Shown: piece after piece, positions 12,607 to 38,104 of the stretch
Numbering within the stretch: position 1 is the first letter of the stretch
Layout: each line of letters opens with the position of its first letter
From: Actinomycetota bacterium
GTDB lineage: Bacteria > Actinomycetota > Aquicultoria > Aquicultorales > Aquicultoraceae
NCBI GenBank assembly: GCA_018333515.1
Contig: JAGXSZ010000025.1
Span: 1-41,769 of the forward strand
Direction: 5' to 3'
Length of the DNA stretch: 41,769 bases
Made by a program: the position numbers and the translations under genes
The notes under the pieces: generated by a model
What the model was told of the DNA's origin: nothing
The model's database searches: none
Seen by the model: the letters and a program-made list of their open reading frames with translations, nothing else

Positions 12607-13629
12607 TTAGAAATAATAGAGCTCTTGATACCAGCGTACCCATTCAGATAAAGCTGGCTCATTTATCTCTTTAGCGCGGTTTATCAATTTTTCCGATGAA
12701 AACGCAAAGAACCGGTCGTTGTAACCAATCAATTTTTGAAATTCATCAATGGATGGCCGTAAGGAATCATTTCGAGGATGATATACCACCGAAAAATACA
12801 CTTTCTTGTAGGGCCACTTGGGTGAAGGCGATATTTCAAGGCTTGTGGCAAGCAGTTGATTCCGCCACAACTGATTCATGCCACCTTTGAATGGGCATTC
12901 GTCATATTCTCTAATACGGTCGGCAGTAAACGGTGAAGTATCTTGCACCGTAATCTCCCAATAACGAAATTTACATTTGCTGTGGTAATAACAAAGATTT
13001 TTATTATCCAGGATTGCGGATGCTGGTGCGCAGGCATGAGAGGGAGTACGGCCAAGGCTTTTAAAGCCTCCGCAAGTTGTAAACTCCACTTCCGTCAGTT
13101 TATGTTCAATCATCCATAGGTTGAGATTGCCCAGATTGTCATAGTATGCAATGGCAATATCTGCGTCGGTTCCGCTCACATTTGTATGGTCATTAAGCAC
13201 ATTGTCAGGTTCATCCCAAAACTCAATCCGAAATCCTCGGTCTAGATGATCCGTCGCAATTGACTTGAGGTCTGTTTTTACAGCACGTAGAACCTTGGCA
13301 GCGATCAGCGGATCCTCGAGGAGAGGCAAGAACAAATTTGCGCATGCAGCCTGAGAACTCGCCATATGTCCAAGAAACTTATGGGATTTGAAGGGGAATC
13401 GTTGTTGATGATCCAGGAAACGTTCTTTTATTGGGCGATACAGCGGATAACCCTGTGATTTCAATTCATCCGGTAGCAACGCATCATAAGGAGAGTTCTT
13501 GAAAAATCCCGATTCTTGAGTCAGATGAGCCCATTTCCAATTTATCAAGTGAACGTACATTTGTAACTGAAAATCGGTAAGTTCATTGGGTAGCCGATAT
13601 TTATTTCTATCGATTTCATAAATTTTCAT
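12607..13629 (-). CDS. PD-(D/E)XK nuclease-like protein (PGN_0703-like)
   Basis: A 340-aa protein, alone on the minus strand inside the plus-strand module, so likely cargo. The nuclease core is GTDADIAIAYYD (D155/D157), then LWMIEHKLTE with E175 and K177: the D...ExK layout. A segment HMASSQAACANLFLPLL (about 88-104) before the core resembles the SSQ-x-x-x-N-x-F signature I associate with PGN_0703-type putative restriction endonucleases. Several Cys and His residues (C186, C200, YYHSKC, DECPF) may bind metal. It has no adjacent methyltransferase. It ends at the shared terminator. Either a defence nuclease or an element nuclease; the fold call is fairly firm, the role is not. Confidence 0.55.
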   Translation of the reverse strand: MKIYEIDRNKYRLPNELTDFQLQMYVHLINWKWAHLTQESGFFKNSPYDALLPDELKSQGYPLYRPIKERFLDHQQRFPFKSHKFLGHMASSQAACANLFLPLLEDPLIAAKVLRAVKTDLKSIATDHLDRGFRIEFWDEPDNVLNDHTNVSGTDADIAIAYYDNLGNLNLWMIEHKLTEVEFTTCGGFKSLGRTPSHACAPASAILDNKNLCYYHSKCKFRYWEITVQDTSPFTADRIREYDECPFKGGMNQLWRNQLLATSLEISPSPKWPYKKVYFSVVYHPRNDSLRPSIDEFQKLIGYNDRFFAFSSEKLINRAKEINEPALSEWVRWYQELYYF

Positions 13630-13852
13630 AATATAGTCCGGCTTTCGTTTTTGTGGCGAATATAAAAAAGACCTTCTTCATTTTACTTGCGAATGGACAG
13701 GGCATGAAACCTGGTTGCTGAAACAATATTCAAGTTTCAGGCACCTGGTTTGATGTTCTGTTATGCAGTGCATGCAGAAACGCAAGAACGTTGGCTATTT
13801 TTACAATTCAACGTTGGTTATTCAATCCATATCTAATCCAAAGGAGGATCAC

Positions 13853-14920
13853 ATGAATGTATACGAAGACAAATACCTGCGCGAAAAAGTGAACCGCATT
13901 ATTGCCAGGCAGAAGGAGGGCAAGATCATCATTGCTGCTTATAAGGATGGCAGTGGTTTACCTGCGAGAGAAGACCTTGGTCAGGAACTGACACGGGCAG
14001 CTTACCCATACGATTATGCAGTTGGTAAAGCCGGTTTCCTTAAGTACGATTCGGAACTCGGAGCTTACCTGTTTACCGCAAAATCAGGCGAGAAACTACC
14101 TCAAGTATTAGCTAACTACCGAGTTCTATCTTTAGGTGAAGCAATCCTCGATGTAAAGGACAGGAGTATCCGTATTCAATGCGGCGAAACCAGCGTTACC
14201 TTTACCGGAGCACAACCCTGGAAAGGTCTGTACGAAGTTCTGAGAGAGGTCAACGAAGAACTGGCTCGAGTCAATTCTGGGATTGTTGTTTGGAAGATTG
14301 TTCCGAAGGAAAGCGGGGATTCCAAATCGGGTGATCGTCTATTTCCTGAAGCGGTACCAAAGCTTCGGAACGGGCAAGCAATGGCACATGCCGCCGGCTA
14401 TGCCTATGACACCGATCACAACCTGGCGTATATTGGCCTTGTAGGTTACAAGACCAGCCTGGAGTCACTACGAGTGACCCTTATGTGCGGGAAATCCCTA
14501 CAAATGACTCAGGACGGCCTAAGCGATGTGTCCCTGATTCCCACTGATAAGTATGAACAAGCCTGGCAAGCCATGCCTGAATACACCAGTCATCATGTCG
14601 GGTTTGTATCTCGGCTTGCGCTTCCTGGAAAATGGGAACCAGAAGACCTCAGTGCATATCTGCTTATTTTTCGAGGAACACCTGATCCAGGAAAGGAATT
14701 GATACAGCTTTTCGTTGAACGAATCAAAGAAGCTCTGGAGGTGCCGATCCTGGATGAATGGTCAGTAGCCCTTTGGAAACAAGCTCGCAGTCGTAAGTTG
14801 GTTCAAGATCTGACCACAGGTGGCGATTGTATCCTTGGTGCCAGAATTGACCTGCAAGCTGACTGGAAAGACCTGTTATCTGAGTTATTAGCTCAGGAGG
14901 AAATCTCACTGACCATCTGA
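13853..14920 (+). CDS. Hypothetical element protein, 355 aa
   Basis: Not recognised. ATG 13853 is placed by AAAGGAGGATCAC; the open frame upstream to 13763 is non-coding leader, which contains the hairpin CTGAAAC/GTTTCAG at 13718-13740. The protein is soluble, mixed alpha/beta and without Cys motifs. Its two halves look alike in style (YGFLKYDSELGAYLF-type and YIGLVGYKTS segments) but I cannot prove duplication. It is followed after 110 bases, including small hairpins around CCCCTCAAGGGG (14972-14983), by the helicase fusion, and probably serves the same DNA-processing step. Confidence 0.45.
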   Translation: MNVYEDKYLREKVNRIIARQKEGKIIIAAYKDGSGLPAREDLGQELTRAAYPYDYAVGKAGFLKYDSELGAYLFTAKSGEKLPQVLANYRVLSLGEAILDVKDRSIRIQCGETSVTFTGAQPWKGLYEVLREVNEELARVNSGIVVWKIVPKESGDSKSGDRLFPEAVPKLRNGQAMAHAAGYAYDTDHNLAYIGLVGYKTSLESLRVTLMCGKSLQMTQDGLSDVSLIPTDKYEQAWQAMPEYTSHHVGFVSRLALPGKWEPEDLSAYLLIFRGTPDPGKELIQLFVERIKEALEVPILDEWSVALWKQARSRKLVQDLTTGGDCILGARIDLQADWKDLLSELLAQEEISLTI

Positions 14921-15030
14921 GAGAACAAGTAAAACTACTCGCAACATCACCCTGGAGGGGGCGCTTTTCATCCCCTCAAGGGGTTGGACGCGTCTCCTGC
15001 GGGGATTTTATTATCGCAAAGGAGTGAACA

Positions 15031-18000
15031 ATGCGTCCACCAGCAATCGAAAGAATGGGGTATTACCCCACGGATGAACCGGTTGTCGAGATCATCCGCA
15101 CTTACCTGAAACCGCCCAGCGAAAGAGGGCGGTTATTTGATCCCTGCGCAGGGGAAGGAAAAGCTGTTTCTTCCTTGGGCAACGCGCTCAACTGCGAAAC
15201 CTGGGGTGTAGAACTCTCACCAGAACGAGCAGGGAAAGCTCAAAACGTGATGGATAAGGTTTTCCAGGCTCCCTGGCAGGCTTGTGTTCTGAGCGATGAA
15301 AGCATTTCCTGGCTCTATCTGAATCCGCCCTATGAATTTGACCGTTTTGAGGGTCAAAAGAGGCTCGAATGGGATTTTCTCAAGACGACCTCCTCCAAGT
15401 TGATGCGTGGCGGGCTGCTAACCTATATCATCCCTCAGAAAATTCTGGGAATGATTGAAGTTGCTCGGCTGTTAGCCGGACATTATGAAGCCATCACAGT
15501 CTATCGGTTTCCGGACGGATTGTACGAGAAATTCAAGCAAGTGGTGGTGTTAGCCTATAAGCGCAAGCTCTACCAGCTACCCACGGACAAGGAGATTCTT
15601 TCGCTTCAAAGCCTGGCATCAACTGAACTGGAGCCCATCCATTCCGCTGTTGAACCGATCTATGATCTGTTGCCTGCGCCATTACGAGGTGCAAATGGCA
15701 AACCAGTAGTGTTCAAACGAACGGATTGGGAACCGGAAGAGGTGGTTGAAGCCACGAAGGAAGCAGGTGTCCATAAGACCAGTGATTGGCTCGACCTGAT
15801 TCGCCCAACGCGTGGTTTGGCTCAACTCTCCCAACCGGTCATGCCCTTGAAGAAAGGACATATCGCTATGCTCATGGCCTCTGGCATGATGGGCACGGTG
15901 AAGTTGACTGATGAAGAGGGTAGGCCAATGCTGATCAAGGGAAGGGTAATCAAGGTGGTCGAAAAGACTGAGCAGCCGGATGCCAAAGAAGCGGATACAG
16001 TCGTAGAAATCTACAAGGATCGTTTTGTTACTACGGTGGCTGTGCTGAAACAGGATGGTATCCAGGTGATCCAGGACGTTAAAGGTCTTTCAGAGTTTAT
16101 GAAAGTTCACGGCGAGATGATCGCTGCGCATGTCCTGGAAACCTATAAACCCATCTACAATCTGGACCCGACTGCAACCGAAATTAAAGTCCTCGATAGT
16201 CTTGGTACGCAACGAAAAGCCCTTCCCGGACAAGAGCGTGCTGGATTGCTTCCTGCCCAAAGACATGCGGCAGCGGCGTTAGCTCGTTCAATTCGCAGAA
16301 ATGGCGTGGCCAACTGCCAAGCAGAAATGGGGACCGGGAAGACGACAATATCAACTGGGGTGATAGAGCTGCTGGATTCTTATCCTGCAATCGTGCTTTG
16401 TCCTCCACACCTCGTACCCAAATGGATCCGCGAAATCGAGGAAGTGATCCCAGGAGCATATGCACGAGAAATCCGTCGCATCGGTCGGAATAGTGACGAA
16501 GTTTATGATGTGAACGATGTCCGTGAATTCCTGGATCAATATAAGGAAGCTTATGACACTGCTCAAAAGAAAGGAGGTTCAAAGCCCAAATGGGTGGCAG
16601 TAGTAGCACACACCTCTGCCAAGTTTGGGGCAGGATGGCAGCCGGCAGTCATCACCAGGAGAGCGAGAGACCCACTGACTGGAAAGATTGTGGATGCCTG
16701 TGCTTGTCCTGGTTGTGGTAAGGTCGTGATGGTCGAAAAGGACGGATTTGTGGTTCCGGTAACTGACGCCTCTGAATTGGCAGAAAAACGCCAATTCTGT
16801 CACAATCGAATCCCTGGTTGGGAGTTGGATGCAGACGGGAGGACGAAACTTGATGCCAACGGTGACTCGGTATGGGGCACACGTCCATGTGGGACACCCT
16901 TGTTTGAGTTCAATGGGGCGAGGCGACATAGCATTTCGGAGTACATCACCAAACATGCGAAGGGCGCTTTCAAGCTTCTGATAGCCGATGAGGTCCATCA
17001 GTTTAAATCCAAGTCGTCAGATCGAGGTGTCGCGTTCCATCAACTGGTAACAGCTGTGAAGTGGACGCTAACGCTCACCGGGACATTCTTTGGTGGCAAA
17101 AGCACTTCAATTTTCTGGCTGCTGCATCGCTTGAACCATGGCGTCCGTCGTGATTTTGCTTTCCACGACGAGAAGCGCTGGGCGCGGTTGTATGGTGTGC
17201 TTGAAACCACCCGAAGACGAAGACGCGATGATGATGCGGACGAAGATGGGGTGTACACAGGAAACCGGCGCTATCGCAATCAAGCGAAGGAACAACCGGG
17301 CGTCAGTCCGGCCATCGTGAGTCGGTTATTGGATACCACCATATTCCTGAGCCTGAAGGATCTGAACCTGGCTCTACCATCGTATAAGGAAGAGGTGGTT
17401 GCCCTGGATATGCTCGATGACCAGGGACAGCAATACCACAGCATGGACAGCGTCTTGAAACAACTGGCTATCCAATCCAGTCGCTATCTATCCACCTGGC
17501 TTCAATGGACACTGGCGCGACCGAATTCAGCTTTTCGGGATGAGGTCGTCGTTGTGGATGAGGTGGATGGTGAGGATGGCAAGTCAGTCCGCAAGGTGCC
17601 GCTGATGGAACTGCCGGCTATCAACCCAAATGGTCACAAGTGGCTGCCAAAAGAAAACTGGCTGGCCGACTTCTGCAAACTGGAGAAGCAGCAAGGGCGT
17701 AAAGTGCTGGTCTATGTTCGTCAGACCGGCACACGCGACATTCAAGATCGGGTGATGATGCCGCTGCAAGCCAACGGACTGAGAGTTTCCATCCTGAGTG
17801 GAAATGTTGACCCACGCAAGCGTGAAGAATGGATCGCCAAACGTGTGAATACAATCGATGTTTTGATATGTAACCCCCGGCTTGTGGAAACGGGTCTTGA
17901 CCTGGTGCAGTTTTCTACCGTGGTGTTTTTCGAGATCGAGTATAGCTTGTACACGTTGTGGCAAAGCGTCCGGCGTGTATGGCGGTTGGGGCAGACCCAG

Positions 18001-18387
18001 CCGGTCAAGGCAATTTTCTCGGTCTACTCCACGGCGATGGAAGCAACTGCCTTGGCCCTCATGGGAAGGAAGATGAAGGCTGCGCAGCTCGTCTACGGCG
18101 ATGAAGTCGGAGGAGCAATTGTACCTGAAGAGGAAGGCGACTTCTTGACTCAGCTAGCGCGTGATGTGCTGGATGGGGCGAAGCTATCCGACTTACAGAC
18201 CCTGTTTGCGGATGACCTGCAAGTCAGCCACAATCCGATGGGCAGTTTGACGACCCCGAGCGCGGTAATTGTTCCGGGTCCGAAGGTGATGACCTGGGAT
18301 GACTGGGTTAGCCAAAAGACCGTGGTTGTCAGACGGACAAGGAGAAAGGAGGTGGTTCCGGAAGGACAGATGGGATTTGGAATTTAG
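15031..18387 (+). CDS. DUF6094-type methylase-like / SF2 helicase fusion
   Basis: An 1118-aa protein. Residues 34-101 carry methyltransferase motifs: FDPCAGEG (SAM-binding motif I, 36-43) and LNPPY (motif IV, 97-101). A helicase follows: EMGTGKTT (Walker A, 432-439), DEVH (653-656) and a motif VI-like RRVWRLGQ (981-988) in a SNF2-like C-terminal half. Between Walker A and DEVH is an insertion with C557, C559, C562 and later Cys, probably a zinc ribbon. Segment 715-760 is Arg/Asp-rich. Fusions of this kind occur in plasmids and integrative elements; a role in remodelling or modifying element DNA is inferred. AAAGGAGTG precedes ATG 15031. A strong terminator follows. Confidence 0.7.
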   Translation: MRPPAIERMGYYPTDEPVVEIIRTYLKPPSERGRLFDPCAGEGKAVSSLGNALNCETWGVELSPERAGKAQNVMDKVFQAPWQACVLSDESISWLYLNPPYEFDRFEGQKRLEWDFLKTTSSKLMRGGLLTYIIPQKILGMIEVARLLAGHYEAITVYRFPDGLYEKFKQVVVLAYKRKLYQLPTDKEILSLQSLASTELEPIHSAVEPIYDLLPAPLRGANGKPVVFKRTDWEPEEVVEATKEAGVHKTSDWLDLIRPTRGLAQLSQPVMPLKKGHIAMLMASGMMGTVKLTDEEGRPMLIKGRVIKVVEKTEQPDAKEADTVVEIYKDRFVTTVAVLKQDGIQVIQDVKGLSEFMKVHGEMIAAHVLETYKPIYNLDPTATEIKVLDSLGTQRKALPGQERAGLLPAQRHAAAALARSIRRNGVANCQAEMGTGKTTISTGVIELLDSYPAIVLCPPHLVPKWIREIEEVIPGAYAREIRRIGRNSDEVYDVNDVREFLDQYKEAYDTAQKKGGSKPKWVAVVAHTSAKFGAGWQPAVITRRARDPLTGKIVDACACPGCGKVVMVEKDGFVVPVTDASELAEKRQFCHNRIPGWELDADGRTKLDANGDSVWGTRPCGTPLFEFNGARRHSISEYITKHAKGAFKLLIADEVHQFKSKSSDRGVAFHQLVTAVKWTLTLTGTFFGGKSTSIFWLLHRLNHGVRRDFAFHDEKRWARLYGVLETTRRRRRDDDADEDGVYTGNRRYRNQAKEQPGVSPAIVSRLLDTTIFLSLKDLNLALPSYKEEVVALDMLDDQGQQYHSMDSVLKQLAIQSSRYLSTWLQWTLARPNSAFRDEVVVVDEVDGEDGKSVRKVPLMELPAINPNGHKWLPKENWLADFCKLEKQQGRKVLVYVRQTGTRDIQDRVMMPLQANGLRVSILSGNVDPRKREEWIAKRVNTIDVLICNPRLVETGLDLVQFSTVVFFEIEYSLYTLWQSVRRVWRLGQTQPVKAIFSVYSTAMEATALALMGRKMKAAQLVYGDEVGGAIVPEEEGDFLTQLARDVLDGAKLSDLQTLFADDLQVSHNPMGSLTTPSAVIVPGPKVMTWDDWVSQKTVVVRRTRRKEVVPEGQMGFGI

Positions 18388-18451: not shown

Positions 18452-19309
18452 CTATTCCTGAAATGGTTTAGGATCAAAATCGATCCACTCTATGTTATTG
18501 ACAAATTTAAACCTTCTAGCCATCACTTCAAGTGCGGAAGGATTATTATCAATTAATATAAAATGCCTTCCCAATTCTTGTGCAGCTGCACCGGTGGTGC
18601 CACTGCCTGCGAAAAAGTCTAATACCTTCCCATTTTCGGGTGAAGAAATCTGAATAATGCGTTTTAAAATACCAAGTGGTTTCTGCGTAGGATAACCAGT
18701 CTTCTCTTTACCATTCGTTGGGACGATTGTATGCCACCAAGTATCAGTCGGCGTTTTCCCGCGAGCAGTTTTTTCCGGTCCTACAAGACCTGGAGACATA
18801 TAAGGTATACGCTCCATATCATCATAATTAAACACATAATCTTCTGGGTCCTTTACGTAAACAAGGATGTTGTCATGCTTGGTGGGCCATTTCTTTTTTG
18901 ACCGAGCTCCATAGTCATATGCCCAGATTATTTCGTTTAGAAAGCTATCTCTTCCAAAGATCTTATCTAGTAAAATTTTACAATAGTGGACTTCCCGATA
19001 ATCAATGTGAAAGTATAAAGAGCCGTTAGGCGCTAATAATCGATAAGCCTCCAGCAATCTCGGCTCCAAAAAATCCAAATAATCATCAAATAAATCCGAG
19101 TATGATCTTGCTCCGATTTTTATTGTCTCGTATCTTTGGCCTTGAAAACCCACTCGGTCACCATTTTCTGACCGTACAGTCTTAATTTGTGTGCGCTGTT
19201 GAACTTTACCAGTGTTAAACGGTGGATCTATATAAATTAAATCAACAGATCCGGAAGCAATATCTTGCATGATTTTTAAATTGTCGCCAAAAATAATTTT
19301 GTTTTCCAT
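18452..19309 (-). CDS. Beta-class site-specific DNA methyltransferase (N6-A or N4-C)
   Basis: A 285-aa protein. Motif IV IDPPFNTGK comes first (DPPF at 28-31) and the SAM-binding motif I LDFFAGSGTT last (231-239), after GYPTQKPL; this order defines beta-class enzymes such as the RsrI type. Target recognition is probably in the middle (residues 110-205). It transfers methyl groups to an adenine or cytosine amino group within a specific site. It is the last gene of the minus-strand operon, 68 bases after a small nuclease gene, and the pair looks like a restriction-modification unit. The ribosome site (TTGAGAG) is weak. The terminator follows. Confidence 0.85.
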   Translation of the reverse strand: MENKIIFGDNLKIMQDIASGSVDLIYIDPPFNTGKVQQRTQIKTVRSENGDRVGFQGQRYETIKIGARSYSDLFDDYLDFLEPRLLEAYRLLAPNGSLYFHIDYREVHYCKILLDKIFGRDSFLNEIIWAYDYGARSKKKWPTKHDNILVYVKDPEDYVFNYDDMERIPYMSPGLVGPEKTARGKTPTDTWWHTIVPTNGKEKTGYPTQKPLGILKRIIQISSPENGKVLDFFAGSGTTGAAAQELGRHFILIDNNPSALEVMARRFKFVNNIEWIDFDPKPFQE

Positions 19310-19377
19310 ATAACTCTCAAAAATTCCTAATCAGTGGTTAATAACTTCAGAGTTGTCTACACTTGTCTTGATACTAA

Positions 19378-19878
19378 TTACTCAAGGATCGCTGTAACTG
19401 ACGATTTCGTGTGCTCCCTTAGTTTAATTAGATCGGTATACAAATCATCCATTATTTTCTTAACTTCTTTGAATTGTTCTTGTTGTCCCATTCTGATCGC
19501 AGCATATACTCTCTCGGCTAGTTGAGAATCAGAACATCTATATACGTTTTCGATTTGATTAAGGGTTAAAGCAGCACATTCAAATGGGATTTCTGTGTGT
19601 TGCCCACGTGTTCTTTGCCCGACTAAATGGACAACCTCTTGGGGAGGAATAACGTACCAAACACCATCATAATAGATAACCAGTGTTTGGTATCTTATCG
19701 CACGAATTTGGTTAATCGTATTTGAGGTGCAATCCTTGACGTCAACATGATACCAAACTCCATCGATATTTACCTCAGTGTCACCTGAAGAAAAGTCATT
19801 GGAACGACGAACATTAGTTACTAATTTTATAAATCTATCCTTAGCTTTTTGACCCTTTTGACGTAATGACTCGGCCAT
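19378..19878 (-). CDS. Small PD-(D/E)XK nuclease, candidate restriction endonuclease
   Basis: A 166-aa protein. The core reads SSGDTEVNIDGVWYHVDVKDC: D33, then D46-V-K48, the D...(D/E)xK pattern of the fold shared by Holliday-junction resolvases and many type II enzymes, preceded by a basic helix (QKGQKAKDRFIKLV). The C-terminal half is helical and charged. AAGGAGGAG precedes ATG 19878. It sits directly before the DNA methyltransferase and 87 bases after brxL. Small size and pairing suggest a type II restriction enzyme whose DNA is protected by the partner methylase; a BREX accessory nuclease is the alternative. The core is read by eye. Confidence 0.6.
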   Translation of the reverse strand: MAESLRQKGQKAKDRFIKLVTNVRRSNDFSSGDTEVNIDGVWYHVDVKDCTSNTINQIRAIRYQTLVIYYDGVWYVIPPQEVVHLVGQRTRGQHTEIPFECAALTLNQIENVYRCSDSQLAERVYAAIRMGQQEQFKEVKKIMDDLYTDLIKLREHTKSSVTAILE

Positions 19879-19965: not shown

Positions 19966-22032
19966 CTATGAATTATCTGTTTGGATGTAAATAATCTCTG
20001 TCTCTCGACAAAGACGTTTGGTCTGGTCGATTTCACTTAATTCATATTTTGAGTCGGGTTTTTGAAAAATATCCAAACCGCGGTCACTTATGATCTTCCA
20101 CCCATTATCTGCTTCGATACCACGCCGATGCACAGTCGTGCTAAAGTCGTAACTGAGAATTACGCCGTGTTTGATCACACTAGTTTTTATTTCATCTAGT
20201 TTTTTGCTTACTTCTCTCTCTTGATAGGCATCTTCTGCAGATGTTGTCAGATTAAGTTGGACAGGCCCCCCCGATGTGTCAATGATCCCGATGAAAGTGA
20301 TTAAATTTCGAATTTGATATTCTAACCTAACATAAGGGTCAATAATTTGGATTGACTTTGCACCGCTAAGGTATGGCCCAAATAGATTCTTATAACTATG
20401 CCCTGTCTCTTCTTCATGGATGTGAATTGTTTTAGGTACTAGAACATTTTCACTGATATCTAAAGGGCTGGAAGTCATACGGATAGGCAAATCTGTTTTT
20501 TCTTCAGGTTGATCTTCATCATCTGATGAAATCGGCACTTGCAGGTGAGTCTGGTACTGAGGTAAATCGTTAGGATCTATATATTTAGCAGGCCGGTGAT
20601 ATTTTTGAAATTCATCAGGATATGATGTTTTCATAGTTATGGGTGCATATTCCCTGTCAAGTTTACAAAGCTCGTCTCGCACGCGCTGGCGGAACTCTAC
20701 CGCAGGATTCACGCAATAACTATAAAAATCCTGTTCGGAAGGTTGTTTGTCGGGGAAGAGTATTTTTAATAGACCAGTTGCACCTGCTTCAACATTCTTA
20801 CTGTCTCGCATATCGTCGCAGTTTTCAACCTGCATATTAGTTTTTACAAAATCTCGAAAACTTATATCTGCCCGTAGCATGTGGAGAATTTCACCAAAGA
20901 TATCTCCCTTCAGGCCAAAGCAAATAGAGGGTGTATCTTTACTAATTCTTGGCAAATCCCATCCCGGCAATAATCCAGAAAAGCGATCTAGAAATGCTGT
21001 TTCTCGCAGAAAATTAGGGAAATCTCGGAACAAACCAATGACTTCGTGAAGGGGGCGTTTATTTTCGTCAAGATCGATATTTGCCAGAATTACGATTCCA
21101 GCTTCAGCAGTAATTGAACCAGCACTACCTCTCCCGAAACGACCTGCTTCCAAATAGGATTTTAGAAGTGCAGTTAATTCTCCCGACTTATCTCCTTTAA
21201 CTTTCTGCGCCTCATCAATTACAACGCTGTCAAAACGCGTAATTAATCCTGGAGTCTTGCGTGCATCATTGTAAAAAAGCACAGGGGCAGAGATTGCTCC
21301 AGATCGGACAGAAACATATCTGGACATATTCTCATAAACAAAGCTTTTACCCGTTCCCTTAGGCGCAAGCTCAATTAAATTGAATCTGGGTTCCACCATC
21401 GGAATCAATCGGCTAATTAAAAGCAGCTTTTGTCGTTCACTGTAAATATGGTGGTTAAAACCCATCGAATTGACAATAAAGTTAATCCATTCTTGAGTGG
21501 TAAATTCCTTGCGCCGTGCAATGAAGAAATCTAAATCAAGACTGGCGAGTTGGAATGGTGTAAATGCCCGCATGATCACCTGGCCGGGACCATCATCGGT
21601 CGGGGGGGCATATGAAAGCGTACCCACCCCCCATATTCCACTGCTTAGTAACATTTCATTGTCCCGAACAATGTTGGGCGGTACAGAGCCTTTACTCTCA
21701 TCTAAAAAAGGGATAATCAAATGACGATCACCCTTTGCCAGGTCAACATACACTGAAAAATCATCTAGTAGTTTCACGTCATTTTGTTCGTAAAGACGGT
21801 TCTTGATTGTTTCCCGTTCACTTTTATCAGGAACAAACCTCCGAACAAAATCAGCAATTTTGGAGCGCGATTCATCGGTCAGATCAGGAGAGTCCCCCAC
21901 ATAATTTGCCACAATCCATTCTCGAACATAAACCGGGATAGCCCGACTACCGAATCCTGCTTTCCGTGCAAAGGATTTATTGATAATCAATGACCCAAAG
22001 TTGTCTAATGCTTTTTGCTCAAATGTTTCCAT
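19966..22032 (-). CDS. brxL: BrxL-type AAA+ ATPase with C-terminal MIT_C-like domain
   Basis: A 688-aa protein. The N-terminal part and ATPase match BrxL: Walker A LAPKGTGKS (222-230) and Walker B SVVIDEAQ (269-276), followed by AEAGIVILANID. Typical BrxL ends in a Lon-type protease region; here no Ser-Lys protease motif is visible. Residues about 545-688 instead match the MIT_C domain, known from eukaryotic MITD1: SYKNLFGPYL, IIDPYVRLEYQ, NGWKIISDRGLDIFQKPDS. That domain has a phospholipase D-like fold, though the HKD motif is absent. BrxL assembles on DNA and is needed for BREX phage defence in types 1 and 4. It starts 9 bases after pglZ, with AGGAGCAAGCT before ATG. Confidence 0.8.
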   Translation of the reverse strand: METFEQKALDNFGSLIINKSFARKAGFGSRAIPVYVREWIVANYVGDSPDLTDESRSKIADFVRRFVPDKSERETIKNRLYEQNDVKLLDDFSVYVDLAKGDRHLIIPFLDESKGSVPPNIVRDNEMLLSSGIWGVGTLSYAPPTDDGPGQVIMRAFTPFQLASLDLDFFIARRKEFTTQEWINFIVNSMGFNHHIYSERQKLLLISRLIPMVEPRFNLIELAPKGTGKSFVYENMSRYVSVRSGAISAPVLFYNDARKTPGLITRFDSVVIDEAQKVKGDKSGELTALLKSYLEAGRFGRGSAGSITAEAGIVILANIDLDENKRPLHEVIGLFRDFPNFLRETAFLDRFSGLLPGWDLPRISKDTPSICFGLKGDIFGEILHMLRADISFRDFVKTNMQVENCDDMRDSKNVEAGATGLLKILFPDKQPSEQDFYSYCVNPAVEFRQRVRDELCKLDREYAPITMKTSYPDEFQKYHRPAKYIDPNDLPQYQTHLQVPISSDDEDQPEEKTDLPIRMTSSPLDISENVLVPKTIHIHEEETGHSYKNLFGPYLSGAKSIQIIDPYVRLEYQIRNLITFIGIIDTSGGPVQLNLTTSAEDAYQEREVSKKLDEIKTSVIKHGVILSYDFSTTVHRRGIEADNGWKIISDRGLDIFQKPDSKYELSEIDQTKRLCRETEIIYIQTDNS

Positions 22033-22041
22033 AGCTTGCTC

Positions 22042-24402
22042 CTAAAGGTTATCCAAGTCGAACTTTGGCTTTGCAGGCTCGATGATTTCTATCGGTACCA
22101 TGATATCGTTTATACAAGGCTGCCCAAGAAATTCGTATGTAAGTCTGATGTGTAGTTTTCGAAGACCAGTCTCTGCATTCCGGACACATCGAGATGGAAT
22201 AGCAACTGGGAGCCGGACTAATTTTTCAAGACTTCCAAGTTTGAGTTTACTGGTTTCAAGGTTAACATCCATGATTTCTATTTGACATTCATCGCATGAA
22301 TAATTATTTAAGTTGGTAATTTCGAGTAAAAGGTCAAATTTCGTACCAACATAAATTTTGTTACCTCCTGTGATTGCAATTGCCAATTGTTTGGGCGACA
22401 CAATGACAGGTCGATATACTGCGGATGGGATGAGTGTTTCTTCGGGTGTTAGTCCACCGTGAATATATGCATTTTCATCTGTTGGCAAGAAACGGTAAAG
22501 CCGGCGAGCAACCAGGTAATTGGTTTCTAATTCCAATAAATCCCTTTTCAATAGATAACAATCGTATTTATAATTTTCAGGCAGTTTCTTTATTTCTTCA
22601 TCCGAAATAGAAATATAGCGATGATGTTCATCGTCCGCGCGTTTTCGATAGTAATCCCCTTGAATTACGTTAATGGTTCCCTTAGGGATGCGTGTGGATC
22701 CGTGATCCGAAATAATCACTACAGTTAGATCTCGTTCCGCTCCAATTCTTTCAGCAAAAGCCCGAATGTCTTGCGATAAGGAAACTAGATAATTGCGAAT
22801 AGCTTGAGGGTGTGATAGGCCGGTTTGGTTCTCATCTTGGTGGAGAGTAATATCCAATGGTAAATAATTTAAGAAATAGATATCATGTTCTCTAGTAGAA
22901 ATTGATCGAAATTCACCAATACTGCCCACATAAAGAACTTTCTTTTGTAATCGTGCTTTCCAAGTACTTTCCACTTGGTTCTTATACGATGTTTCTTTGA
23001 ATGGTTGATAATGACCTGTAATAATACATTTTTTACTTACCTCAGTACAAGAAGGCAACATCGAGAAGCAATAATCCATTTGTTGCTCGTAAAAGCCTTG
23101 TACTTGTAATTGATGCAACAAATCTGGATAAAATTTGGCATTTAAATTGTCTGCCATAACAACCAATACCGGACTATCCAGCTGTTTCCATGCATTACTG
23201 AGGTCTAATAACCATTTCCATGCCATTCTCTTTGAATGATATTTTAAGCTGCCATAATTTGAATTCAGCCAATCAGAATAACAACCAGCAAATTCTGCAA
23301 TTTCGTCATTCAGTTGACCTGTATTTTCTAACCAGAATCGATATGGTAAGTAAGACTCTACTGCCCAAAGAACCCATTCTTCCTCCGTCCAGTTGGATTG
23401 TGGCTGGACAGGTTGAGGGCGAGTGATTAGTAAATCAAGAGCATTAAGGATTTGTGAAACATTCGGGATTTCTTGGATAGGTTTAAATTTCGCCCTAATT
23501 TTTTCCACCAAGGGTGCATCAATATTTAATTGACCTTTTTGAAGTATCTGATAAATCGTATTAAATTCGATTTCCAACAAGCCACTCATCTGATCAACAA
23601 GGTGATTTAATTCCTCTACATTGCCCGGTGTGTTTTTGCCGGAAAGATAAACTCTAATTTCATCAAGCACCCTTTCGTTGCCTCGTAGAAGAATTGGAAC
23701 TTTTCGGTAATCAAGCTTGCTTTCTCGTAGATGTAAAAATGCAGTTCCAAAAAGACGTTTTCCTATGGCTTCCGGGTAGCCAATCAACATTTTCATGGCA
23801 GACAGATTACGAATTAATACTTGTGGCGATTCTTCTAACCAGCCTAAAAGGACTTTTTCACCATTTCTTTTCTCAGATTCTAAGAGAACACGAAGATCCC
23901 TAAGTCTTTTTAAATACAAATCTCTAACGATTGGACGATTAAGCGCTGCATCCCATTGGTCAGTCTCGTAATTGGTAATAAAATCTCCGATCCTTTTCAA
24001 GCCTCCATCAGATATGAGAAAATTTCCAAAAAATACTTCCAACAAGTATTCTTCAAAAGTTGCATTTGCTGATGCGGGAATGCTTAGATCAAGTAGAGAA
24101 GACTCTTTGATTTGTTGATCAGTAATTGATTCAGGAATTGAGATTCCTATTTGTTTGGCCAGCTGTTTTCGGAAATTTATTTCCTCAACAGTGATGGTTT
24201 CTTTTCCATATCGTTTTTGTAGGATGCTTAACCATTTCCCAACTTGATTATTGGTTATTACAACATGAAGGTCTCTCTGAGAATGAATTGTACTTACGAT
24301 GCGATCATATCCTGAAACGTATTGATCAATATCGTTCAGGGTTACATCCGCATCTGGAACATGAACATCTAGGGAAAGGTCAAGAATTGTAAGTTTAATC
24401 AC
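22042..24402 (-). CDS. pglZ: PglZ-domain protein, BREX core
   Basis: A 786-aa protein. It has the alkaline-phosphatase-like PglZ fold: LVVMADNLNAKFYPDL (D418), the conserved MLPSCTEVSKKCIITGHYQP, and TVVIISDHGS (D566, H567), which supply metal-binding residues. The N-terminal 400 residues are helical; the C-terminal 90 form an Ig-like beta domain. PglZ is the marker protein of all BREX types. The start is a GTG (24402) with GGGGTAATC before it, 14 bases after brxC. All signature residues look intact. Confidence 0.88.
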   Translation of the reverse strand: MIKLTILDLSLDVHVPDADVTLNDIDQYVSGYDRIVSTIHSQRDLHVVITNNQVGKWLSILQKRYGKETITVEEINFRKQLAKQIGISIPESITDQQIKESSLLDLSIPASANATFEEYLLEVFFGNFLISDGGLKRIGDFITNYETDQWDAALNRPIVRDLYLKRLRDLRVLLESEKRNGEKVLLGWLEESPQVLIRNLSAMKMLIGYPEAIGKRLFGTAFLHLRESKLDYRKVPILLRGNERVLDEIRVYLSGKNTPGNVEELNHLVDQMSGLLEIEFNTIYQILQKGQLNIDAPLVEKIRAKFKPIQEIPNVSQILNALDLLITRPQPVQPQSNWTEEEWVLWAVESYLPYRFWLENTGQLNDEIAEFAGCYSDWLNSNYGSLKYHSKRMAWKWLLDLSNAWKQLDSPVLVVMADNLNAKFYPDLLHQLQVQGFYEQQMDYCFSMLPSCTEVSKKCIITGHYQPFKETSYKNQVESTWKARLQKKVLYVGSIGEFRSISTREHDIYFLNYLPLDITLHQDENQTGLSHPQAIRNYLVSLSQDIRAFAERIGAERDLTVVIISDHGSTRIPKGTINVIQGDYYRKRADDEHHRYISISDEEIKKLPENYKYDCYLLKRDLLELETNYLVARRLYRFLPTDENAYIHGGLTPEETLIPSAVYRPVIVSPKQLAIAITGGNKIYVGTKFDLLLEITNLNNYSCDECQIEIMDVNLETSKLKLGSLEKLVRLPVAIPSRCVRNAETGLRKLHIRLTYEFLGQPCINDIMVPIEIIEPAKPKFDLDNL

Positions 24403-24416: not shown

Positions 24417-27400
24417 TTACTTTTTGAACTCATCTCGGATTGTCTCCTCTATGGCAGCCAAAATATCCGCATCCGTAATGATATGATCTTGTTTGATGTG
24501 AGAAATAATATCTCTTAAGAGGACGATTAGACCCACCTTATCTCCGGGATTCTTGAACCTGTAAATCCTTTCTTTGGGATCTAACTTGGGTGCTGGCTCG
24601 GGGATTAATTTGCTTTCATCGTCAAGGTTGGTAAATGCAATGCGCTCAACCTTGCTTGCTTCGTTCTGGCCGTTCGTCGTTACCAGATAATAGGTGCAGC
24701 TCTCAGCAATTTCAATTTCCTGGGGAAGAGAATCAACTGTTATGAACTGTTTTGCAGTCAATGGGTCTTCATTCTTTGTAACACGTACTTTCACCCCAGC
24801 TTCAGGAAGTGAAACTGTTAACTTAGTCGAGCCATGATATTTTACTGCCCAGGTTCCCTGATAGCTCTGAGTTAATTCAGACGTACAGGTAAAAACAGGT
24901 GCCGGTACTTTAGGTAGACTGGTTTCAATCTTTATAAGTGCATCCTGGAATTTGTTGACATAACCAGTCGTTTGATCATAAGACCAGTCATCTACCTTAC
25001 CAAGGGTGAATCCATAAGCGTTCGGGATCACTTCCAAGAAGGTTTTCTCAATATCAACCAATTTCTGCAAAGCTTCAAGCACTGTCTTTGTTGAAGGAGT
25101 TTGCCAATCTGAAGTTAGAAGTTTCTGCTCAGGATGTAAACTTTTCAACCAGGTATTAATGGCGTTGGTGTAATCCTGATACGTTTCTCCTTCTGGATGG
25201 AATAATTTCGATAATTGGGAAACAATGTTCGTTTTTATTGTAGTAGCTCGTGTTTCAATTTCTTGCTTGTCTTTTAGCAGCTCCTTAATGATTTCACTTG
25301 CTTCATCATCGCCCAATTCGGCATCTGGATTGTAGCCATAAGTTTGTTTGATTTGCTCCAATAGAATCTGGCTACCTGAATTACCCTCAGCGTTTTTCGT
25401 CAAAAAATCTACCAAGCTTTGAGCACTACTGTCATCGTTATAAACTCCTACTGCCCGCTCAAGCCGAGTCCGCTCTTTCCACCACCCTTGTAATGCACGC
25501 CATGCTTCAGCAAGAGTTTGTTGAGTGCCGGCAGCGGCTGGTTCGCTCGCAAAAAGGTTATAAATTTCATTAATCAGTTTCGCGGTTGCGGGCGTTAATG
25601 GACGTCGTTCAAGTGTCGCTAATGGGAACTTGCCAGTTGCTACATCAATGATAGTTTCAGGATCGCTGGTATCTGAATACCCTAATCCGGCAGGGTTGAC
25701 TTTCAATCGAATTTCATCACCAAAATGACGTATTGCACAGGCCAGGAATAAGGCTAAGGCATATGGTCCAAGACCATATGGAGCTTCAGTCATTTCTGAT
25801 AGGAGTGACCATATATTTAGAGTATCACCGCGTTTTAAGCCCTTGATATTATCGATTAAGCCAACCAGACCTGGAAATTTGATCTGGTACTTAGAAGGAT
25901 TGCTTTCCAATTCATATGTGGCAATATTACCTGAGTAATCCCCCTCCTGAATCAAAACTCCGTTGTTTGCCAAAGCAAGTTTCAAATATCGTATTTCACC
26001 ACGATTTTCTTTCTCTCCGTGATCAATCTGCACTGGCTTGTCCAGCTGAACGAGTTTTCCAACTGCATCGCGGAGGGCAGCGTCTTTTGATGCTGAAAAA
26101 CTCTTGGGATGAGCCTTACTAAGATATTCATGGCTGGTCGTGCTACGGCTGGTGAATAACCGATTCATCAAAACGTCGGCCGGATCATATTCATTCACTG
26201 GGTCGGCTACCAGGGTTTTTCCATCCTCACGGTACCAAAGTAATCCTTTGGCTTCCAGGTATCGTTCGCGAGCATGAATAAAATCACCTACCCGACCAGT
26301 CTTTTGGTTTTCTTTACCTAGCATGTCGTCAGCTAAAGCTTTTTCCTGGAACTCCATCTTATTGTATTCGTCTGTCAACATGAATTGCTGGACCGCGATT
26401 AAATTAATGACGGCTTCCCGAATCGGAATCGCTGTTCTGGGAACGCCGGCAATTACAGTGGCCAAATGATTGGACTTCACAGCTTGTTGTGCTTGTTGTA
26501 TCTCCTGATCGTTTTCACATAAAACATAAACCATCGTGCCGTCGTATCGCTCACTCCAAGTGTTTTGTGAAGCACGCTTCTGTTCTTGAAACTCCCAAAA
26601 ATCGATCTCTGCTCCATCTGGCTGCTTATATTTGGCAGCCAATTCTTGAGGGGTCGCGAACACGCGAATTAGGCGCTTATCACCCAAATAATCCTGGTTA
26701 TGGCCTTTGGCGTCCGTCCAGATTTCCCATCTTTTTTCTGCTAATTTACCCACCTTTTCTGATAGGTTTAAAGGTTGGTTAAGGATATCTTGCTTAATCC
26801 CGTTGACCAGAGTGTCTAAGTCAGCCATATTGCTTCGGCGGAACTCGTATTCACCTGATGGGGATTGGAACAAGATTTTATTTGACATCAGGCTTTTTAG
26901 TTCGCTGCCTAACATCTTCTTGTCATTCCCTGATACGAGGTTCAAACCGAATTCCAATGTCTGTTGGGTCACATTCACATTGCATACTCGATAGACAAAG
27001 ATCAGGTCTAGGACTCTTTTTGTAAAAGCATCAATTTCACGGCTCAGCGTGTTTTTATAAGCGAACCGTCGTGCTTCTTCTACAGCAGCCAGATAATTTC
27101 GGATATGGTCACGGATATCTGGACGTACCATCAACGTGGTATCTGTGAAACTGGGTTTGAAATAGGTGGCAAGATATTCTGGTGTGTATATTTCCAGCTC
27201 ACCATTCGGTCTGGTCACATCGTAATTCCGCACAAACCAGGAGTATCCACCTTCCGGAGGATTCTCACCAAAACGCCGGAAAAACGAGAAGACTGATCGT
27301 GCATCCGATCCCAATTCTTTCGACATCTTCGTAAGGCAAAATGTCGTCATCGGGTGAGCCGGATAAATATTCTTCACAATTTGATCCAGGAGTTGAGGTT

Positions 27401-28541
27401 CATCCAAATAATCAAAGATTTTCATGCGCTTGGCATCGCCGGCCATTTTAGTCAGCAGCCAGGAATTCTTTTTTATAACCTCATCCTGCCAGGTCGTATT
27501 TTCAGTTTTTGGCGATACCAACGCAGCGATAATTTGTTCCAGTTCTTCGGACTCAAGGCTGACTTCAGTAACTCGGTCCCTTACCACTCGAAAATCCATT
27601 TGAAGCGGTGTGTTCGCTCCATATGCTTCAAAACGTCGATGCCCTGTTCCAATGAATATTAATTGCATCCCATCAATGCCATCTTTAGACATTTCTGCAA
27701 AACCCTGGAAGATGCTCATGCTGACACGACCCTCGGATAGGGCATACCCAAATTCATCAGCTAAAAACACCAACCCCTTATAACGCTTTTGGAAATCATG
27801 ATTCGCTAGAAGATCTTTGAGAATATCCAAAAGGCTGTCGTTCTTAAATTTCATCTTGCTCTTGGTAGCCTTTTGGTAGGCTTCCTGGAATTGATCCATG
27901 GCTGAGTTTTGATTTAATCGGAGATTGGATTTGAGCTGTTCCAATGATTGACGTGGATCATCGCCTCCTAAATGACTCAGGAAGTCATTGAAAGTGCCGA
28001 CCAGATGGCCAGCCTGTTCATCATGCTCATATTCTTCAATCCATTTCAATGCGCCTTTAAACTGGGTATCTAAAACGATACTTTCTGCGCCTTCATTTTG
28101 CAGGGCTTTTTCCAGAGCGCTGATCAGCATTTCATCAAATAGTTTTGCCTCTCCAAAATCACAAGGAGCGACCAAATAACGACCATCACCACGCATGTTG
28201 CGAATTTTTTCAGAACCAGTTCGGTCGCGTTTAGCCCAGTTATCAAAGAAAGCTGTCATCTCCAGATCGGTTGGCTTGGAGGAAAAGTAATTTGCCAGCA
28301 TGAGACACAAATGGCTTTTACCTGTACCATAACTGCCCGTCAGCATGAATACTTTTTCTTTATTCTCTTTACTGGGTAATTGCGCCTGTGCTAAGGATAT
28401 AAACGCTTCGCGGTGAGAGCGAATCGGGACATAACCCCGCATATGATCGCGGTTTTCATTGTCGTTGTAGTAATAATCAAGCAAACGAACTTGATCGCCG
28501 TAGGCTGTGTGGAAGTTTACAAGATCAAATATTTTCGTCAT
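24417..28541 (-). CDS. brxC: BrxC/PglY-type ATPase, BREX core
   Basis: A 1374-aa protein, the usual size class of BrxC/PglY (about 1200 aa) or slightly larger. It begins TKIFDLVNFHTAYGDQVRLL, has Walker A LTGSYGTGKSH (67-77) and Walker B GLVFLADEFGYAL (256-268), then long helical regions and a C-terminal beta domain (about 1180-1330). BrxC is an ATPase required for BREX modification and defence. CAAGGGGAGGATCACT precedes ATG 28541. It is 20 bases after brxF and directly before pglZ, the pairing seen in BREX clusters. Confidence 0.88.
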   Translation of the reverse strand: MTKIFDLVNFHTAYGDQVRLLDYYYNDNENRDHMRGYVPIRSHREAFISLAQAQLPSKENKEKVFMLTGSYGTGKSHLCLMLANYFSSKPTDLEMTAFFDNWAKRDRTGSEKIRNMRGDGRYLVAPCDFGEAKLFDEMLISALEKALQNEGAESIVLDTQFKGALKWIEEYEHDEQAGHLVGTFNDFLSHLGGDDPRQSLEQLKSNLRLNQNSAMDQFQEAYQKATKSKMKFKNDSLLDILKDLLANHDFQKRYKGLVFLADEFGYALSEGRVSMSIFQGFAEMSKDGIDGMQLIFIGTGHRRFEAYGANTPLQMDFRVVRDRVTEVSLESEELEQIIAALVSPKTENTTWQDEVIKKNSWLLTKMAGDAKRMKIFDYLDEPQLLDQIVKNIYPAHPMTTFCLTKMSKELGSDARSVFSFFRRFGENPPEGGYSWFVRNYDVTRPNGELEIYTPEYLATYFKPSFTDTTLMVRPDIRDHIRNYLAAVEEARRFAYKNTLSREIDAFTKRVLDLIFVYRVCNVNVTQQTLEFGLNLVSGNDKKMLGSELKSLMSNKILFQSPSGEYEFRRSNMADLDTLVNGIKQDILNQPLNLSEKVGKLAEKRWEIWTDAKGHNQDYLGDKRLIRVFATPQELAAKYKQPDGAEIDFWEFQEQKRASQNTWSERYDGTMVYVLCENDQEIQQAQQAVKSNHLATVIAGVPRTAIPIREAVINLIAVQQFMLTDEYNKMEFQEKALADDMLGKENQKTGRVGDFIHARERYLEAKGLLWYREDGKTLVADPVNEYDPADVLMNRLFTSRSTTSHEYLSKAHPKSFSASKDAALRDAVGKLVQLDKPVQIDHGEKENRGEIRYLKLALANNGVLIQEGDYSGNIATYELESNPSKYQIKFPGLVGLIDNIKGLKRGDTLNIWSLLSEMTEAPYGLGPYALALFLACAIRHFGDEIRLKVNPAGLGYSDTSDPETIIDVATGKFPLATLERRPLTPATAKLINEIYNLFASEPAAAGTQQTLAEAWRALQGWWKERTRLERAVGVYNDDSSAQSLVDFLTKNAEGNSGSQILLEQIKQTYGYNPDAELGDDEASEIIKELLKDKQEIETRATTIKTNIVSQLSKLFHPEGETYQDYTNAINTWLKSLHPEQKLLTSDWQTPSTKTVLEALQKLVDIEKTFLEVIPNAYGFTLGKVDDWSYDQTTGYVNKFQDALIKIETSLPKVPAPVFTCTSELTQSYQGTWAVKYHGSTKLTVSLPEAGVKVRVTKNEDPLTAKQFITVDSLPQEIEIAESCTYYLVTTNGQNEASKVERIAFTNLDDESKLIPEPAPKLDPKERIYRFKNPGDKVGLIVLLRDIISHIKQDHIITDADILAAIEETIRDEFKK

Positions 28542-28561: not shown

Positions 28562-29026
28562 TTAGATTGCTTCGAACTCGTTGAGCGGCAGAATGCGTGG
28601 TTGGCCGCTGGAATTGTTGAATTGGGCTGTTGCCAGAATTTCATCGCTCTGAATGAAAAAGGCAAAGGTTTTTTCAGTTACTCCTGGAGAACGCAACTGA
28701 ACTTTCATCCAGTGCAGCAATGCCTGTTTATCTTCAGGTTTCCAGGTGTTGAAAAGGAAGTCTGGATTATCAATCAGAATAAACTCTTCTGTCACTTGCA
28801 ATCCCAACAAATATTCCTTCAAAAAACCGAAACCGCATTGAGTAATTTTTGGCAGGTCGGGTTGTTTTATAAATGCCTGTTGAAGGTCAAGATAATAAAT
28901 GCCGGCGCGTTGTGCTGCTGCTCGTTTTGCGAACGAAGTTTTCCCTGATTTTGCTGGATAATGCACAATAAATGCCCGCTTATCTTCGCTGCTTTGTTGG
29001 TCCAGATACTTAAAAAAGTTGATCAT
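28562..29026 (-). CDS. brxF: BrxF-like small P-loop protein
   Basis: A 154-aa protein. It has a P-loop-like YPAKSGKTSFAKRAAA (Gly-Lys-Thr at 28-30) whose first Gly/Ala is replaced, and a Walker B-like EFILIDNPDF (81-90). Size, motif style and position directly before brxC fit BrxF, the small ATPase that marks BREX type 3. The ATG overlaps the stop of the DUF4007-like gene (ATGA), so the two are translationally coupled, with AAAGGTG as ribosome site. The partner is probably BrxC. Confidence 0.72.
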   Translation of the reverse strand: MINFFKYLDQQSSEDKRAFIVHYPAKSGKTSFAKRAAAQRAGIYYLDLQQAFIKQPDLPKITQCGFGFLKEYLLGLQVTEEFILIDNPDFLFNTWKPEDKQALLHWMKVQLRSPGVTEKTFAFFIQSDEILATAQFNNSSGQPRILPLNEFEAI

Positions 29027-29973
29027 CGGGATTCACCTTTCAAGTATTGGGTTGCTGCAGATAACCAGGTGGTGTCTCGTTTAAACCGTACCTGATCCAA
29101 CCCCGACCGAACTTCTACAGATAATAGTCCAGCGTTATGTAATTCGTCTAAAGCCTTGCGAACTGAAGCCTGGTTCTGCCGGAAGATACGACCGGGGCTG
29201 AAATTCCCATCCACAATGAGCGGAATTTCAAGGGAAGGCGCGCCAGGATAATATTGATCACGATAAACCAGGAGGCTGCTGAGCCAAACCAGCGGCGGAA
29301 TAACAGCTGTATTTGAATTGAACTCGTATTTTGGGCCGCCAACATGAGTAATCAGGTCAAGCGGCGAAAAGATTTCCTCGGTATAACAACGGATTGCGCC
29401 ACGCAATTCAGCCGGTGCTTTCTTTTTCAGCGTTTGTTCAGACCACTTGTCCGAAGCGCTGGTTAACACTTGGGTGATTTCACCAAGATCCACTTCCGCT
29501 TTTCGAACCGGTAATTCATTAAACGCGATACTCCAGATCACCAGACTGGCGTTCGAGGCCAACATGTAATGGAATAACCACAAAAGACCTTTATTATCCA
29601 GGTAGGGGGATTGAGCAAGCACCCGCGTACCAAATGGTGTCAAAATGTTTTCGGAATTTATCAAATAGATTTTACGGCCAAAGGATAAAGTGGCTTCCGT
29701 TCGGGCTGAAGGGATTGAAAGAAGCTGGGCGATCTGTTCAATCGTGAGTTTACTGGCTTTCAAATCACTGAGCTGATGCAGGATACGGCTGAGATGGATG
29801 CTGTGGATCTCATAATGACGGGTCAATTCCAAGCGCGCATTCGCCGGAAGTAACCCGGAAAGAGTCAGTCCAGGAATATCTTTTTGTAACGGGATAAATT
29901 CAATCGTCTGTTCAATGGCGACGGTTTTTTGCGGTTTTGGAGGATCATCAAATAAATTAGGCTGTATGGGCAT
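29023..29973 (-). CDS. DUF4007-like winged-helix protein
   Basis: A 316-aa protein. Residues 109-153 (ENILTPFGTRVLAQSPYLDN, LLWLFHYMLASN, VIWSIAFNEL) match the core signature of DUF4007 as I know it: L-T-P-x-G, DPYLED, LWLLHY, WYWFFN. A helical bundle precedes and winged-helix-like segments follow. DUF4007 proteins are best known beside DNA phosphorothioation or PAPS-reductase genes, including some BREX type 4 clusters; none of those partners is here. TAGGAGGAACTTAT precedes ATG 29973. It is 11 bases after pglX and overlaps brxF. Its role may be DNA binding or modification control, which is not established. Confidence 0.65.
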   Translation of the reverse strand: MPIQPNLFDDPPKPQKTVAIEQTIEFIPLQKDIPGLTLSGLLPANARLELTRHYEIHSIHLSRILHQLSDLKASKLTIEQIAQLLSIPSARTEATLSFGRKIYLINSENILTPFGTRVLAQSPYLDNKGLLWLFHYMLASNASLVIWSIAFNELPVRKAEVDLGEITQVLTSASDKWSEQTLKKKAPAELRGAIRCYTEEIFSPLDLITHVGGPKYEFNSNTAVIPPLVWLSSLLVYRDQYYPGAPSLEIPLIVDGNFSPGRIFRQNQASVRKALDELHNAGLLSVEVRSGLDQVRFKRDTTWLSAATQYLKGESR

Positions 29974-37409: not shown

Positions 37410-37853
37410 TCATCTTGAGAGTATTTGATCCTCTTGTTGATCATGGACCGGGCTTGTTTTAAAAGGATCGCACAATCCTAATTGACCCGCCATCGCCATC
37501 ATCTGGTCACGGCTATCTGTGCCAAATTTCTTTTTCAAAGCACTTATATGTAATCGAATGGTCGCTTCGGTTAACCCTAGTTTTAGCGCAATTTGTTCTG
37601 GCGTATATGCCCTTGCCAGTAATTGCAAAACACTGATTTGCCGCTCTGATAATGCCGGCGCTTTTCTTTTCGGTTTAGGTGGCTGACCCGCGAGAACAAT
37701 CAAGCCATTAACTTGCACTTCTGGGCAATCATCCAAAGCGTAACCAGGCACATTTCTGCCATCCCGGATGATCTTTACCAAATCCTGAACATCGTCGACC
37801 ACATTTTGGTAAAGAACAGACCCTTCATCATTGAAAACCACGATGGATGGCAT
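37410..37853 (-). CDS. LuxR-type HTH regulator
   Basis: A 147-aa protein. The C-terminal part is a clear LuxR/GerE domain (about residues 66-125): LSERQISVLQLLARAYTPEQ, LGLTEATIRLHISALKKKFG. The N-terminal 60 residues are a short domain (IVVFNDEGSVLYQNV...) that is not a receiver with the usual phospho-acceptor set. It is divergent from the 38208 gene group; the shared region contains the SOS box and an inverted repeat. It probably controls integration/excision genes or its own promoter. Confidence 0.75.
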   Translation of the reverse strand: MPSIVVFNDEGSVLYQNVVDDVQDLVKIIRDGRNVPGYALDDCPEVQVNGLIVLAGQPPKPKRKAPALSERQISVLQLLARAYTPEQIALKLGLTEATIRLHISALKKKFGTDSRDQMMAMAGQLGLCDPFKTSPVHDQQEDQILSR

Positions 37854-38043: not shown

Positions 38044-38104
38044 AGTAAAATTATAGGCGAGATTATCTTATTGTGCAAGTAGATGAAGGAAAAATCTATA
38101 TATC

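Follow-up and report, generated by a model that had tools for sequence, protein, structure and literature searches.

A BrxL protein that ends in a domain like that of human MITD1, an ESCRT-linked protein, raises the question of what such a tail does, and in what kind of BREX system. The protein is encoded in a stretch of 41,769 nucleotides (the window) from an Actinomycetota bacterium of the Aquicultoraceae (GenBank assembly GCA_018333515.1, contig JAGXSZ010000025.1, positions 1–41,769).

The brxL gene and its C-terminal domain

The gene, at 19966–22032, lies on the minus strand and reads from 22032 to 19966; the plus strand has stops throughout. Its product of 688 residues consists of BrxL_N, an AAA+ ATPase, a linker and MIT_C, and the peptides by which it was originally recognised, SYKNLFGPYL, DPYVRLEYQ and NGWKIISDRGLDIFQKP, are all found in the translation. 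The ATPase half is BrxL-like, as had been predicted. With the BrxL pair of Pfam models (PF20442/PF13337), the N-terminal DNA-binding region (residues 11–141; 21610–22002, minus) matched BrxL_N with E 1e-25, and the ATPase domain (residues 153–464; 20641–21576, minus; Walker A APKGTGKS, Walker B VVIDEA) matched BrxL_ATPase with E 7e-93. The NCBIfam equivalog for BrxL, TIGR02688, gave 419.5 bits against a cut-off of 329.3. The Walker residues G228–S230, D273 and E274 are invariant across the BrxL alignment. In a PDB sequence search the two entries of Acinetobacter BrxL (8EMC and 8EMH, PMC10164562) aligned over residues 6–459 with E 1e-53, which covers the N-terminal and ATPase domains; the Acinetobacter protein then continues into a Lon-like domain, whereas the window protein has a PLD-fold MIT_C.

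The tail (residues 544–683; 19984–20403, minus) matched the Pfam family MIT_C, PF16565, with E 2.2e-39 and 135 bits against a gathering cut-off of 25. The PDB sequence search matched residues 533–680 to MITD1 (2ymb and 4a5z, E about 7e-24), and gave no match to Lon. An AlphaFold (AF2) model of residues 520–688, built as a monomer from 23 aligned copies, had a pLDDT of 90.6, and its best solved matches in Foldseek were five MITD1 chains (E 7e-19 to 2e-17, TM 0.76–0.81, 0.8 to 4a5z). They were followed by PLD-superfamily enzymes, namely phosphatidylserine synthase, Zucchini, Tdp1, phospholipases D and PLD3, and these include a nuclease (Zucchini) and a DNA exonuclease (PLD3). Neither a Lon nor a RadA C-terminal fold was among the 50 fold matches listed. 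The model of the full-length protein was poor in the ATPase, probably because of a shallow alignment, and nothing beyond its MIT_C and linker was considered. About 75 residues, partly of low confidence in the model, separate the ATPase from MIT_C, so a Lon domain cannot fit between them. BrxL thus has a MITD1-type PLD-fold tail. A chance match or a misalignment is ruled out by Pfam, the PDB sequence search and the fold match together, and a Lon fold at the C-terminus by the MITD1 and PLD fold matches. The original prediction could have fallen on an insignificant MIT_C match or on a C-terminus that modelled as Lon, and neither was the outcome.

Two of its statements have to be narrowed. The tail was said to stand in place of the Lon part, which is true in comparison with Type-1 BrxL, but in its own branch the alternative is no C-terminal domain at all. 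The lack of a Lon Ser-Lys motif says little, since Lon-type BrxLs are also without the dyad (PMC10164562, PMC12839542).

The sequence HRRGIEAD (20107–20130, minus) contains H635, R637 and D642, in the pattern HxRx4D. These three residues are invariant in all 23 MIT_C copies of the window's system, which come from many phyla and are 40–65% identical. Among Type-1 copies, 18 rows have the column filled; 17 of them retain H and R, and at the D position there are 10 D, 6 N, 1 S and 1 V, some of these rows being partial. Compared with the HKD half-site, HxKx4D, the lysine is an arginine in the window BrxL, and GSxN, the second part of the classical PLD motif, is absent from BrxL MIT_C. Another genome of the genus encodes a genuine HKD protein (HQKFAIID) that matches the MIT_C model weakly. 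When it is aligned to the profile, its three HKD residues coincide exactly with the H, R and D of MIT_C. This alignment supports taking HxRx4D for a PLD half-site in which the lysine is replaced by arginine, as PMC12839542 proposes for "BrxL-HKD". The net charge of MIT_C is near neutral or acidic in nearly all copies.

The architecture itself is already known. The PADLOC model PDLC02508 (BrxL, 698 positions) matches residues 1–686 end to end (E 8e-133), and gives no domain function or subtype. PMC12839542 (Rakesh and Krishnan 2026) describes BrxL with a C-terminal HKD-endoDNase, with an HRD motif, which in 1,030 of 2,913 Type-1 taxa occupies the place of the Lon-like domain. The names MIT_C and MITD1 do not appear in its text, but judging from position, motif and fold, the HKD-endoDNase is almost certainly the MIT_C domain; it follows the ATPase and has HRD for HKD, and the Type-1 plasmid BrxLs that we recovered carry MIT_C at that place. 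A difference is that the published form is confined to Type-1, with Type-4 BrxL lacking a C-terminal extension, whereas the window operon is of neither type. Literature on BrxL with MITD1, and on DUF4007 with BREX and a methyltransferase, yielded nothing beyond this paper. New relative to the literature covered are the subtype and its distribution, the strict HRD within its clade, the finding that BrxL is exchanged, and the connection drawn explicitly to MITD1.

The operon and its BREX type

On the minus strand the genes are ordered as a Ppl-like gene, methyltransferase, DUF4007, a 154-aa P-loop protein, SspC-like BrxC, PglZ and BrxL. The last six form a coherent BREX variant. The methyltransferase (29985–33770, minus; Pfam, PADLOC) is of the N6-adenine type and of the DrmMI/MmeI/Eco57I family; its NPPF motif is conserved, and no ExK is conserved in the N-terminal part of the family alignment. 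The DUF4007 protein (29023–29973, minus; Pfam, PADLOC) is SspB-like, and BrxA-like according to PMC12839542. The 154-aa protein (28562–29026, minus; locus comparison) belongs to a family in which many members have an eroded Walker A, and we infer it to be BrxB/BrxF (iSTAND)-like, for which an eroded Walker A has been described. BrxC (24417–28541, minus; 1374 aa) is an ATPase found by PADLOC and placed by its tree in a clade of its own beside SspC. In PglZ (22042–24402, minus; 786 aa; Pfam, locus comparison), the residues D418, T453, D517, H521, D566, H567 and H648 are shared by at least 90% of the 29 copies, and brxL begins nine bases past the end of its gene. The Ppl-like protein (33780–36458, minus), a PHP domain with an SMC-like ATPase by profile matches, is an accessory upstream in the same gene run, and was found at just one other locus of the system; in a Planctomycetota locus (L028:18527–20425) a match to it, 26% identical, comes after brxL.

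Scanning genome contigs with BrxC gave 77 loci, 43 of which are related to the window's system, and with an Abditibacteriota plasmid (L005) they make 44. All six core genes are present at 21 of the 44, many of the others being cut by contig ends, and there are three gene orders. The hosts belong to more than 10 phyla: Chloroflexota, Thermodesulfobacteriota, Myxococcota, Acidobacteriota, Planctomycetota, Verrucomicrobiota, Kiritimatiellota, Hydrogenedentota, Bacteroidota, Ignavibacteriota, Bacillota, Actinomycetota and Spirochaetota, together with one archaeal MAG. In the BrxC tree the system loci form one fully supported clade, apart from Type-4 and Type-1, which joins SspC with a moderate support of 83.

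The operon does not fall into the known types. Neither DUF1819 (BrxA) nor DUF1788 (BrxB) was among its Pfam matches, and its BrxC is outside the Type-1 clade. The Type-3 arrangement, with a BrxHII helicase replacing BrxL, does not apply as BrxL is present; the nearest SNF2-type helicase (15031–18387, plus) is outside the operon and was not found at related loci. With Type-4 and SspBCD the system has in common the SspB-like DUF4007 protein and the SspC-like BrxC, and with Type-4 also PglZ and BrxL, so that these four Type-4 components are present. However, the BrxC clade is separate, the small P-loop protein has its own gene, most BrxLs carry MIT_C, and a methyltransferase is found instead of the PAPS reductase of phosphorothioation. 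PAPS reductase is missing from all 44 system loci, whereas all Type-4 loci recovered, and almost all of the Ssp loci, have it; in PMC12839542, 51 of 457 taxa with the Type-4 set are without it and may include loci of this kind. The methyltransferase, the lack of PAPS reductase and the BrxC clade together make this a methyltransferase-bearing BREX variant with recognition parts otherwise found in phosphorothioate systems.

Other genes were observed at these loci. In one gene-order class, accessory genes lie between the methyltransferase and brxC (L018:8435–9892, L022:7718–9076, L028:7884–9892) and encode Schlafen AlbA_2 proteins, GmrSD_N and a possible HEPN protein. Directly upstream of the methyltransferase at L024:1688–4663 is a 991-aa protein that combines repeats of the RNA polymerase alpha CTD with sigma-70 region 4 and HARE-HTH, and L005 has an RpoD-annotated gene at the same position. 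In the window itself, two genes follow brxL directly at 18452–19878, one for a CcrM-like adenine methyltransferase, the other for a protein of 166 aa that has a weak match of the REase type; both are absent from related loci and are possibly a small restriction-modification pair. A REase-ARP protein (minus), a 385-aa protein of unknown kind and a DUF6094 methylase-helicase (plus) at 12607–18387 probably make up a restriction-like system of their own next to the BREX operon. The island looks mobile from the genes at 37410–40222, whose products are a LuxR-type HTH protein, a protein of 138 aa that weakly matches mad1 (MADS regulator) and a phage-type integrase.

Distribution of the tail and probable exchange of BrxL

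Among 31 BrxLs of the system, MIT_C is present in 23, and 8 end after the ATPase; the domain is thus not essential to the system. The MIT_C carriers form two supported clades in the ATPase tree with a clade of short BrxLs beside them, a pattern that may reflect loss or repeated gain. A single clade of system MIT_C against Type-1 had a p-AU of 0.43. The copies from four Anaerolineaceae share 73–74% identity with the window BrxL, but the BrxC and PglZ of these bacteria share only 27–29% with their window counterparts. The other five proteins of the window are closest (29–60%) to those of L010, L041 and L024, and the first two of these loci have a short BrxL. The simplest reading of these identities is that brxL, tail included, would have been swapped in as a unit from another branch.

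Following the proposal to search other BREX loci, we found the architecture to be widespread in Type-1 BREX and not a single case. Some twenty plasmids, from Pseudomonadota, Bacteroidota and Actinomycetota, encode a full-length BrxL with MIT_C, and several of these, where neighbours were examined, are Type-1 BREX with DUF1819, DUF1788, brxC, pglX and pglZ. The gene tables of the plasmids carry the label "MIT C-terminal domain-containing protein". In two phyla searched by whole genome, a match was found in 5 of 396 and 7 of 297 genomes, most in BrxL-sized frames. MIT_C frames are either BrxL-sized or pieces at contig ends, except for one degenerate plasmid copy and one dynamin fusion. The latter, plasmid-borne in Ca. 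Thiodictyon syntrophicum (L097:3616–6459), is a 947-aa dynamin-family GTPase with a C-terminal MIT_C in which HxRx4D is kept. Eukaryotic contamination is ruled out by the presence of MIT_C in complete plasmids and a complete chromosome. That MIT_C is a phage protein was rejected, as it was found in 0 of 50,697 phage records; one viral contig has a BrxL-like frame of 693 aa.

Human MITD1 shares with these tails the Pfam family and the fold, and is 35% identical to the window tail. The closest is the BrxL tail from a Thioflavicoccus mobilis plasmid (L095:13636–14097), with 46% identity over 137 residues. MITD1 differs in having an N-terminal MIT domain for ESCRT-III and the motif HDREIRFN, that is HxRx4N, whereas the D is kept in BrxL and Pfam found no MIT domain in the window protein, which is therefore not a MITD1-like ESCRT-associated protein. 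In a small tree MITD1 was placed near the Thioflavicoccus tail and L009 with support 90/83, but in a larger tree, which included three fragment rows, the placement lost its resolution. We take the origin of MITD1 as a lead, with transfer possible in either direction.

Possible function of the tail

The original prediction saw the tail as a membrane- or nucleic-acid-binding end. The nucleic acid part is what we retain, and a catalytic effector is better supported than an anchor to membrane or DNA, because HxRx4D is kept in every system copy as compared to HxRx4N in MITD1. We believe, with a probability of roughly 0.58, that BrxL is the effector of a methylation-based BREX variant and that paired HRD half-sites at its end process DNA. 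PLD half-site proteins act as dimers, and MITD1 is a dimer. In Acinetobacter, two BrxL rings on DNA are joined tail to tail by the Lon-like domain (PMC10164562). On these two grounds, dimerising half-sites and double rings, we propose that the MIT_C domains pair at the corresponding place. In the scheme as a whole, the methyltransferase would mark the host DNA, BrxC, the DUF4007 protein and the small P-loop protein would recognise unmarked sites, and PglZ and BrxL would restrict. The N-terminal and ATPase domains of BrxL would assemble as a ring on phage DNA, and each MIT_C, with its PLD fold and one half-site per subunit, would pair with a second copy, probably at the interface made by the Lon-like domain in Acinetobacter. 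Two half-sites would then make a composite active site that cuts or processes the DNA in the chamber, a second cutting activity beside PglZ.

This reading is favoured by the BrxL and MIT_C matches, the PLD fold, the invariance of H, R and D, the alignment with the HKD protein, and the occurrence of MIT_C within PglZ-bearing BREX operons, both at Type-1 loci and among the 44 system loci. Further points for it are the single BrxC clade, the distribution of PAPS reductase and the apparent swap of BrxL as a whole. HRD-type BrxL has also been described as a likely endoDNase (PMC12839542). Against it are the arginine for lysine, the absent GSxN, the D that is often N or S in Type-1, the eight system BrxLs that lack the domain, a literature in which no BrxL-MIT_C with demonstrated catalytic activity was found, and the fact that the closest solved homologue is known as a membrane binder.

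It is conceivable that MIT_C is instead a non-catalytic pairing or docking module which links a pair of BrxL rings, or links BrxL with a different BREX protein, with the conserved residues being structural or ligand-binding. Exactly such a role belongs to the Acinetobacter Lon-like domain, which likewise lacks a catalytic dyad (PMC10164562), and the substitutions of D in several Type-1 copies, as well as the system BrxLs that manage without a C-terminal domain, point the same way. In a purely structural domain, however, three invariant residues across 23 such divergent copies are unexpected, and we hold this explanation to be possible but on the whole unlikely.

A tether to the inner membrane, which would place BrxL where phage DNA enters, is improbable. 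MITD1 is by far the nearest solved relative, and its PLD domain binds membranes according to the title of Hadders et al. 2012, as cited in PMC9477494; the best point for a tether is the MIT_C at the end of a dynamin-like GTPase. But that very copy keeps HxRx4D, which makes the motif and not the membrane the common element, the near-neutral or acidic charge gives no hint of an affinity for acidic lipids, BrxL acts on DNA, and a tether does not account for the invariant HRD. That the tail is a lipid hydrolase by which activated BrxL damages the host membrane and aborts the infection is very improbable: a PLD fold with an HRD motif, and phosphatidylserine synthase as the second-ranked kind of fold match, speak for it, but BrxL is a ring loaded on DNA, which is also the target of the known BREX effectors (PMC10164562, PMC12839542).

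Returning to the catalytic reading, a conserved and exchangeable active site at the end of BrxL would make the question of how BrxL stops phages directly testable. BREX would then possess another nuclease in addition to PglZ. The operon also joins the methylation and phosphorothioation branches of defence, which are treated as separate types, and an immune domain of bacteria that is up to 46% identical to a human ESCRT-linked protein leads to the question of where that part of the cell division machinery came from. A bolder proposal, unlikely to hold in full, is that the system is a separate and undescribed BREX type, methylation-marked, with SspB/SspC-like recognition and a BrxL cutting through paired HRD sites, and that the PLD domain of MITD1 descended from such an effector and lost the catalytic aspartate as it became an ESCRT membrane module. 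If true, this type would be a link between methylation-based BREX and the phosphorothioate-based Ssp and Type-4 systems.
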